DNA of 64,000 nucleotides. Source: Cyanobacteria bacterium FACHB-63 (GTDB taxonomy: Bacteria > Cyanobacteriota > Cyanobacteriia > Leptolyngbyales > Leptolyngbyaceae). Below, piece by piece: positions 36,680 through 39,128 of this stretch. Where the stretch lies: NCBI GenBank assembly GCA_014695255.1, contig JACJNX010000034.1:62001-126000 (forward strand), in the 5' to 3' direction. The position numbers and the translations under genes were made by a program. Each line of letters starts with the position of its first letter. The first letter of the stretch is position 1. The notes beneath the pieces are model-generated. The model searched no databases and was not told the DNA's origin. It was given only the letters and a program-made list of their open reading frames with translations.

Positions 36680-37708
36680 ATGAAAGAGTCTATTTACGCT
36701 GCTTTGACTTGTGCCTGTCTGCTCACAAATATGCCTTTTAATCCAAAGCAAGCCTCTGCTGTACCCTTCCCCAAAGCTGTTGCACCTGCTCCGGTTCCTC
36801 TGTTTCAACAAGTAGAGCGCAGCACCATCACGATCTCTGGCCAAGCTTCCAAGCAAACTGTAGATTCAGCAGATATTTACCTCCCTAGCTCTCCTGCAAC
36901 TCCTGCAAAACGTCCTACAAAATCTCCCACAAGATTTCCCATTGTGTTACTCCTGCAAGGAGCATTAATTGATAAGTCAGCGTACTCAAGCTTCGCCACG
37001 GAGGTTGCTCGTTATGGATTCATCGTCGTTGTTCCCAATCACACGCGATCGCTGAAGGCTCCTAATGGACAAAGCATCACGGGATTAGCAGCCGAACAAC
37101 AGCAAGTCAACGATGTGCTTAAACAAATGATTGCCGAAAATTCCAACCCTACATCCCGCCTTGCTAACCGAGTTGATACAACCAAGCTAGGACTAATAGG
37201 GCATTCGTTCGGCGGCTATGCCGGATTAGGAGCAATTCAAAATCAGTGCTTTCCAGGAGTTTGTACAGGCAGCTTTACTCGCCCCCCAGAGCTAAAAGCG
37301 GGAATCTTTTACGGCACTAATTTCCAAACTCCACCGATTACAGGCACATTTCCAGCAATCAATAACCAGAGCATTCCGACCGCTCTAATTGCTGGCAGTC
37401 TTGATGGCGTGTCTACTTTAGACGAAACCCAAAGAACTTACGAGCAGATTCAAACTCCACCGAAAGCACTGATTATTGTCAAGGGAGCGAATCACTATGG
37501 CATTACCAATCAAGATAGTCCTCGTGATCCACGCCGATCCACCTTAAATCAAACTCAGTCAATCACAACGATCGCTCGATGGAGTGCATGGTTTTTACGC
37601 GCTCATTTACTGAGTGATCCAGTCGCGCTCGATCGAGTGTATAAACAGGGAAATCCTTACGACAGTAACGTTACTGTAACCAGTGTCAATGGGCAGCGTG
37701 AGGATTGA
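36680..37708 (+). CDS. Exported alpha/beta hydrolase (chlorophyllase/dienelactone hydrolase-like)
   Basis: 342 residues with a signal peptide-like N-terminus (hydrophobic to about residue 27, ending near QASA). The nucleophile elbow is LIGHSFGGYAGLGA. The likely acid is in AGSLDGVSTLDE and the base His in VKGANHYGITN, so the triad appears complete. Pro/Ser/Thr-rich segment 60-75 precedes the core. AGGAG lies 8 nt before the ATG. Homologues are described only as alpha/beta hydrolases or chlorophyllase-like, often periplasmic. Monocistronic, convergent with the next gene. Confidence 0.85.
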   Translation: MKESIYAALTCACLLTNMPFNPKQASAVPFPKAVAPAPVPLFQQVERSTITISGQASKQTVDSADIYLPSSPATPAKRPTKSPTRFPIVLLLQGALIDKSAYSSFATEVARYGFIVVVPNHTRSLKAPNGQSITGLAAEQQQVNDVLKQMIAENSNPTSRLANRVDTTKLGLIGHSFGGYAGLGAIQNQCFPGVCTGSFTRPPELKAGIFYGTNFQTPPITGTFPAINNQSIPTALIAGSLDGVSTLDETQRTYEQIQTPPKALIIVKGANHYGITNQDSPRDPRRSTLNQTQSITTIARWSAWFLRAHLLSDPVALDRVYKQGNPYDSNVTVTSVNGQRED

Positions 37709-37852
37709 CTTCCAGACGAGCATTCGTAAAATCTGCATCAAAGAAATCATCCTAGAAATCATTCTATTGTGCTGGGTCGCGATAAACTCGCTCATTGTGA
37801 TTGCATAAATTGTGATTGCATAATTAGGCTTCTCCTTCAAGTTTGTCGGAGA

Positions 37853-38182
37853 TTAGGGTGTTGTCAGATCATTGTGCAGCGATCGACCTGCTTGGGCGAG
37901 CGTCTGTCCCAATTGATCAACTTTTGCAGCTTCTTGCTCCTGAGCAACAGTTGCACAAGTCGCTTCACCTAATTCTTCAAGCATCGCTGCGATCGCTGTT
38001 GTACGTCCTTCTAGAATGGCTCGCTTCAGTTCACTTAACTTGCCAAACAAAGGAGTGTCTTGAAGCTGTATTTCCCAGCGTTCAATCAGCGCGATCGCAG
38101 CAGCAGGATCAGCCGCAGTCAGATTTTGTTGCAGCAGATTGAGTGTTGAATCTAAATCATTCATTTGAATGCGATGAGGCAT
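37853..38182 (-). CDS. Possible internal gene for the C-terminal helical domain
   Basis: Within the hydrolase fusion, in frame, ATG 38182 is preceded by AGGAG (38191-38195 on the plus strand, spaced 8 nt). It would give a separate 109-residue protein starting MPHRIQMNDLDSTLNLLQQN, helical, ending SLHNDLTTP. Two products, long fusion plus short domain, could thus arise from one message. Alternatively the Shine-Dalgarno is a relic of two genes that fused by loss of a stop. Confidence 0.4.
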   Translation of the reverse strand: MPHRIQMNDLDSTLNLLQQNLTAADPAAAIALIERWEIQLQDTPLFGKLSELKRAILEGRTTAIAAMLEELGEATCATVAQEQEAAKVDQLGQTLAQAGRSLHNDLTTP

Positions 38183-39085
38183 CTTCTGTTCTCCTGACGA
38201 CGAATTCAGCAGTGTTAGATACTTCCGAATCAACCCGATCGCGATCTCGGGCAGTTCGAGATGTGGGGTGAGCCGACCCTCCTCAATAGTCTCAGAACTT
38301 CGGATTGCAGACGGATTAATCTCGGCGAACCGCCGTCCCATCTCTGGATCGGTATATTCGGTTTTCTGTCCCCAAAGCAAAGCAGTTGGTGTTGTCAGCT
38401 TGGGAATGTACTGCGCCAAATCAAAGCTTAAGTCGCCGCGCACAAATGCGAGAGCGGCATATTCTGCATTTGGCTGCTGTGCGGATTGCAAATAAGCTTG
38501 AGCAATTTCGGGATAGACACGATCTCGATTCGCAAATTGCCGCTGCTCCAAAAATCCCCGAATTCCTGATTCTGTAGCTACTCCAGCACTATAGAAAAAT
38601 CGATCGAGAATCGGAATTTTGATAATTTGAGCAAACAGATTCTCACTGTAATTCCGTCCGAAGTCATTTAAGCCTGCCGCAGTAACAAGAATCAGCGATT
38701 TAAACAATTCGGGGTGTTCTACTGCGGCTCGAACCGTGAATGCTGCGGTCAAGCCGGATGCAATTACGGTAACTGGAGCATTGCAGGTTTGCTTGATAAA
38801 CTCGACGATCGTTTGCACATAATCTTCGATGCGATAGTTGCGAGCGGGATGGGCTGACCGTCCCCATCCAATCAAGTCCGGTGCTAAAACCCGATAGTCA
38901 GCAGCAAAAGCCGGATAGACCTTTGACCACTCATACGCCGAGGAACCTCCGCCTAGAGCATGGAGGAATACTAATGGTTCTGAAGCGGAATTTTGGTTCC
39001 AAAGCTTTCCTTCGGCAGTGTAGTACACGATCTCACCGAGCGAGGTATTAAGCGATCGTGTTCCAAATCCAGGTGGTATAAACAT
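37853..39085 (-). CDS. Alpha/beta-hydrolase-fold protein lacking nucleophile, fused to a helical C-terminal domain
   Basis: 410 residues from ATG 39085, which has a G-rich Shine-Dalgarno; an upstream ATG at 39118 has none. Residues 1-300 are an alpha/beta-hydrolase fold (FLHALGGGSSAYEW oxyanion loop, LAPDLIGWGRSAHP). By eye the nucleophile elbow reads VIASGLTA, so the Ser position is Gly111. The acid region reads WGQKTEYTD, where the usual Asp is Thr; the final His (LTPHLELPE) remains. This suggests a pseudoenzyme. The C-terminal 109 residues are a separate helical domain that begins with its own Met and ribosome-binding site (see the internal gene). No signal peptide. Confidence 0.8.
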   Translation of the reverse strand: MFIPPGFGTRSLNTSLGEIVYYTAEGKLWNQNSASEPLVFLHALGGGSSAYEWSKVYPAFAADYRVLAPDLIGWGRSAHPARNYRIEDYVQTIVEFIKQTCNAPVTVIASGLTAAFTVRAAVEHPELFKSLILVTAAGLNDFGRNYSENLFAQIIKIPILDRFFYSAGVATESGIRGFLEQRQFANRDRVYPEIAQAYLQSAQQPNAEYAALAFVRGDLSFDLAQYIPKLTTPTALLWGQKTEYTDPEMGRRFAEINPSAIRSSETIEEGRLTPHLELPEIAIGLIRKYLTLLNSSSGEQKMPHRIQMNDLDSTLNLLQQNLTAADPAAAIALIERWEIQLQDTPLFGKLSELKRAILEGRTTAIAAMLEELGEATCATVAQEQEAAKVDQLGQTLAQAGRSLHNDLTTP

Positions 39086-39113: not shown

Positions 39114-39128
39114 AGCATTAATAATGCT
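39114..39128. promoter_or_regulatory. Short palindrome upstream of the pseudo-hydrolase gene
   Basis: AGCATTA-N-TAATGCT, a perfect 7-bp inverted repeat with one central base, about 29 bp ahead of the preferred start at 39085. Possible repressor operator; unproven. Confidence 0.3.

Follow-up and report, generated by a model that had tools for sequence, protein, structure and literature searches.

The window analyzed here, a stretch of 64,000 nucleotides from Cyanobacteria bacterium FACHB-63, contains a minus-strand gene in which a hydrolase-like domain and a small helical domain share one reading frame. The features of this gene, all on the minus strand, are as follows.

37853..39085, minus strand: fused gene, pseudo alpha/beta hydrolase plus helical C-terminal domain, 410 aa
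38207..39085, minus strand: hydrolase domain, residues 1-293 (Pfam Abhydrolase_1; unfused orthologues end at ~290-300)
38753..38755, minus strand: Gly111 at the nucleophile place, elbow ASGLTAA (PDB and family alignments)
38360..38362, minus strand: Thr242 at the acid place (PDB and family alignments)
38270..38272, minus strand: Leu272 at the catalytic His place (PDB and family alignments)
38183..38206, minus strand: linker NSSSGEQK, 8 codons
38191..38195, minus strand: internal Shine-Dalgarno-like AGGAG, 8 nt before the ATG at 38182-38180
37853..38182, minus strand: 109-aa C-terminal domain starting at the internal ATG; a standalone gene in other cyanobacteria

The preliminary description of this DNA had reported a joint between the hydrolase and the C-terminal domain, marked by AGGAG and an in-frame ATG, and all three were found at the positions claimed, with the start codon and its Shine-Dalgarno (SD) stretch lying at the domain joint. 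A second in-frame ATG lies upstream of the fused ORF at 39118 (minus strand); we place the translation start at 39085 because relatives conserve the start MFIPPGFG/MFVPSGFG. Full-length relatives of the fused gene occur in two other genomes, G006 (90% identity) and G005 (78%). That the joint is an artifact of assembly or sequencing is next to impossible: we found no point in its support, and three different genomes have this frame open, at 76-90% identity and with in-frame insertions and deletions in the linker. Ratios of dN/dS, computed by hand from NG86 and YN00 rate estimates, are 0.05-0.08 (NG86) and 0.08-0.10 (YN00) for the hydrolase part of the three fused genes and 0.19-0.28 (NG86) and 0.23-0.45 (YN00) for the C part. 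These low values argue that selection keeps both parts, the latter more loosely, and by this measure the fused gene is not decaying.

The N-terminal part belongs to the alpha/beta-hydrolase fold by profile, with a match to Abhydrolase_1 (PF00561) over residues 37-259 (E 3.9e-16, 59.9 bits versus a curated cut-off of 25.8). Profile comparison with the PDB likewise matches it to many solved alpha/beta hydrolases, and its sequence matches include haloalkane dehalogenase, meta-cleavage product hydrolase and epoxide hydrolase. The domain scores far under the cut-off of every NCBIfam model listed, and an AlphaFold2 model of the full protein, built with 3 sequences, has a mean pLDDT of 41. Where it differs from active alpha/beta hydrolases is in the absence of the triad Ser, Asp and His. 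The nucleophile-Asp-His triad characterizes active enzymes rather than the fold, and its three places are taken here by Gly111, Thr242 and Leu272. In the PDB alignments, Ser falls at the place of Gly111 and Asp at that of Thr242 in two of two cases, and His at that of Leu272 in one of two; L006 and L007, relatives from the same genome, have S-D-H at the triad places, in support of this assignment. The loss of Ser and Asp proposed in the preliminary description is thus borne out by both kinds of alignment, and the catalytic His, which it had overlooked, is gone as well.

This loss extends well beyond the fused gene. We aligned 58 distinct hydrolase sequences from 60 loci (L009 was unmatched and one was a duplicate), set aside four with less than 40% identity, and retained 54 family members, the fused gene here included; these come from the higher-scoring loci and are a subset of all matches. 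At the nucleophile place, 42 of them have Ser, 7 Gly and 5 Ala; at the acid place, 38 have Ser, 10 Ala, 6 Thr and none Asp; and at the His place, 49 have Leu, 4 Val, 1 Phe and none His. Among the four set aside, L006 and L007 read S-D-H, L010 reads G-M-L and L003 reads S-S-H. Gly at the nucleophile place also occurs in the unfused L097, L098, L101 and L002. A relative on a plasmid of Deinococcus aetherius (L158:2390-3376), annotated as an alpha/beta hydrolase and 37% identical, is without the triad too. With the acid Asp and the His absent from all 54 members and from the Deinococcus relative, triad loss is not linked to the fusion, and we rejected the idea that it accompanied the fusion, since unfused members are without the triad too. 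Judged from these alignments, the loss is old, family-wide and predates the fusion. The dead hydrolase of the preliminary description therefore stands, but its tie between "dead" and "fused" does not, the loss being shared by the family and older.

To us the larger point is the conserved triad-less family, none of whose 54 members examined is equipped with the residues that the textbook reaction requires. A hydrolase match at E ≤1e-100 was found in 138 of 388 class genomes, two hydrolase relatives lie on plasmids (E 1e-20), and two annotated family records carry the plain name "alpha/beta hydrolase". A literature search returned no paper on the triad-less hydrolase or the helical family among the matches listed, by which we do not claim absence from print. 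We infer that the role of the hydrolase domain is to bind a ligand or a protein and not to cleave it. It could instead be an enzyme with a catalytic set other than Ser-Asp-His, an explanation compatible with both readings of the internal start discussed below. Such a set might be sought among the 73 positions identical in at least 53 of the 54 members, including H42, S48, S49, E52, S54, D70, D88, E193, D222 and E277. However, the residues at the three canonical places are unable to act as Ser-Asp-His, we know of no alpha/beta-hydrolase mechanism with such a catalytic set, and we regard this explanation as quite improbable.

The last 109 residues have no Pfam or NCBIfam match at E 1. A predicted model of the C-terminal domain (2 sequences) has a mean pLDDT of 75 and five helices, and a Foldseek search of this model against the PDB gave 0 matches at E ≤0.001. 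The best VIA-align row, 8y7f (a Csx1-Crn2 construct) at Z 9.2, falls within the range that the tool describes as usual for helical bundles, and matches of the domain profile in the PDB to a designed helical repeat (0.006) and apolipoprotein A-IV (0.01) were taken as matches of helical composition; from the model, we claim no fold. A Pfam scan of 30 members of the C-domain family hit 29 families, of which the 25 shown were each hit by one or two members (best row KfrA_N, one member, 0.00084), and Phasin is absent among those 25. Identity with phasins is not supported: hhalign gives a probability of 0.5% against the five phasin-like proteins encoded beside unfused relatives of the hydrolase. The C-domain was not found in a plasmid search at E 1e-3, viral contigs contained no confirmed relatives of either the hydrolase part or the C-domain, and the best E in a PHROGs search was only 0.3. 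Homologues of the domain are standalone cyanobacterial proteins of ~105 aa at 29-55% identity, for which we found no Pfam or NCBIfam model. Unlike the fused domain, they are encoded by separate genes, and in some the helical domain stands twice in tandem in a frame of 291-293 aa (L076:3652-4527 and L083 (G008:C531)).

The preliminary description had offered a recent gene fusion as one explanation and had suggested a search for relatives that encode the two parts separately. That search found standalone small genes and unfused hydrolases. The C-domain is present at E 1e-4 or better in 21 of the 58 genomes searched (its own counted) and at 1e-6 in 36 of 388 class genomes; the genome here holds two further clear copies as small genes plus one weak match (E 6.7e-4), as well as an unfused hydrolase of the second group (52%). 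Among the matches listed for the 388 class genomes, three show the fusion (this one, G006 and G005), all in one genus; the hydrolase matches beyond those listed are weaker than a full-length fusion would be expected to give. The remaining five genomes of the genus have only hydrolase matches of ~50%, from the second group. The closest unfused hydrolase comes from G133, in whose family no fusion was seen among the matches listed for 36 genomes. A recent fusion is supported by these distributions, and the contrary picture, in which relatives always carry the fusion and an intact triad, is false on both counts.

On the C-domain tree, the fused domains form one clade (100/100) nested among standalone ones, with L044 nearest. 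Hydrolase and helical gene share a single frame in one Leptolyngbya-like cyanobacterial genus, and the fused C-domains have one origin on the tree. The hydrolase tree places L097 (78%), the closest unfused gene, as sister to the fused group, and puts the unfused, long-branch L098 inside that group, though unsupported (89/0), so that it leaves a single origin of the fusion unsettled, whereas the C-domain tree gives one clade. L097 ends four codons past a shared Leu-Leu, and the linker here is the eight codons before the ATG, which fits loss of a stop codon just ahead of the start of the next gene. In this scenario, the hydrolase and the helical gene would once have been operon neighbors, and loss of the hydrolase stop codon would have made them a single frame. 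No adjacent but unfused pair was seen, by contig positions among the matches listed, and the stop-loss step is for this reason one that we infer.

The linkers of the three fused genes (NSSSGEQK, NSSGEQQ and NLGENQ; 8, 7 and 6 codons) differ by whole-codon insertions and deletions with no frameshift, and AGGAGAA-N6-ATG is present in all three, a small sample. Synonymous sites are near saturation between this gene and that of G005 (dS 1.0-1.7 over both methods). As background we used 464 kb of DNA from the same genome, window included, with 312 ad hoc genes and 1325 internal in-frame ATGs. AGGAG stands at -15 to -5 before 18 of the 312 gene starts versus only 2 of the 1325 internal ATGs, one of them the site in the fused gene, which speaks against mere chance. 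The other lies at 54318-54316 (minus strand) of the window, in a frame of 358 aa. By duplex energy with the anti-SD, a looser test, the site is not exceptional: 32 of the 1325 internal ATGs, the one at the joint counted, pair at least as well. Given the linker residues and codon usage, the chance of AGGAG is 0.05, 0.05 and 0.10 in the three genes, the first two of which are not independent. Folding around the internal start is -9.8 kcal/mol in this genome versus a median of -9.6 for internal ATGs; the start is open in G006 (-3.7) and G005 (-3.9). Among non-fused C-domain genes, an SD-like 4-mer precedes 33 of 50 starts, a set that includes a few tandem or long frames with a guessed start; with the set restricted to the 44 genes of 100-120 aa, the count is 31. 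No clear SD precedes L044, L119 or L120, the nearest three standalone genes listed, so the internal SD need not descend from a gene like theirs.

The case for the start signal, which comes from three sequences, two of them close, is suggestive. The preliminary description had proposed two proteins from one gene, and conservation of the signal in all three fused genes found lends this circumstantial support; initiation at the internal ATG stays putative. We lean, by a little better than an even chance, toward a stop-loss fusion of two neighboring genes, with the long protein and probably also a small one as its products. The mRNA would give the 410-aa fusion, and initiation at the kept AGGAG/ATG would also give a free 109-aa helical protein. 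The hydrolase domain would bind a ligand or protein and the helical part would serve as a binding module, so that the free protein would adjust how much of the fused one there is, or its stoichiometry. Somewhat short of even is the chance that only the full-length fusion is made and that the internal AGGAG/ATG is the leftover of a former gene start, kept by chance and through the Gly-Glu and Met residues that it encodes. That there are only three sequences, that GGA and GAA are common codons in the fused genes, that the internal start is folded in its own genome and that the nearest standalone genes are without a clear SD all agree with a leftover; however, the motif stays identical although synonymous sites are near saturation and the rest of the linker varies. 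If the small protein is made, the internal start is a small case of a fusion that keeps the second gene's own translation start.

The fusion also suggests a partner to look for in the case of the triad-less family. A broader and unlikely proposal is that this family is an ancient, widely kept cyanobacterial binding hub with small helical partners, which would be a fused module (plus a free copy through the internal start) in this genus and an upstream phasin-like protein in another lineage. Were this so, the balance between hub-bound and free helical protein in the cell would be under translational control alone.

Two known systems resemble a gene with the proposed internal start. Cas11, which is encoded by its own gene in other CRISPR types, offers a likeness in that an SD-like stretch and an internal in-frame start lie within a larger gene. 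In Haloferax, cas8b gives rise to Cas11b, a small product of such a start, according to passages of PMC11899642; as those passages have it, the internal start there is experimentally established, whereas here it is putative, and the proteins are unrelated. The other system is cyanobacterial, like ours: an internal ribosome binding site in the single ccmM gene yields a second, shorter protein (M58/M35), as described in part of PMC5784247, and the SSUL modules at the C-terminus are retained in the short form, by an excerpt of PMC8580825. In CcmM, the two forms were seen on immunoblots (PMC5784247, same part), whereas the shorter protein here is predicted from sequence. The scaffold or regulatory role hinted at in the preliminary description is possible.

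Several observations concern the neighborhoods of these genes. At five loci, a phasin-like gene of 107 aa lies within ~15 bases upstream of an unfused triad-less hydrolase (PF05597 at 4.5e-8 and 2.1e-7; two of the five scanned):

L016:1163-1483, phasin-like gene
L026:1172-1492, phasin-like gene
L027:2395-2715, phasin-like gene
L029:2434-2754, phasin-like gene
L030:2412-2732, phasin-like gene

A DUF4330 gene is convergent with the unfused hydrolase at two loci (L016:2464-2991 and L103:2643-3173). Around standalone C-domain genes, the five loci sampled showed no common operon, and the genes nearby encode DUF3140, Zn alcohol dehydrogenase, Coq4, Gfo/Idh, ferredoxin, ferritin-like and glycosyl-transferase-like proteins. 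Downstream of the fused gene in G006 and G005 lies a SnoaL-like gene of 169-173 aa (SnoaL_2, E 3.1e-15 for G006), with an SD-like AAGGAG or GAGGA before its ATG. The genome here has no other copy of this gene at E 1e-8; only a 5' remnant of it is present in the window at 37689-37821 (minus strand), and ~490 bases are lost between this remnant and the 3' end of the neighboring plus-strand gene.
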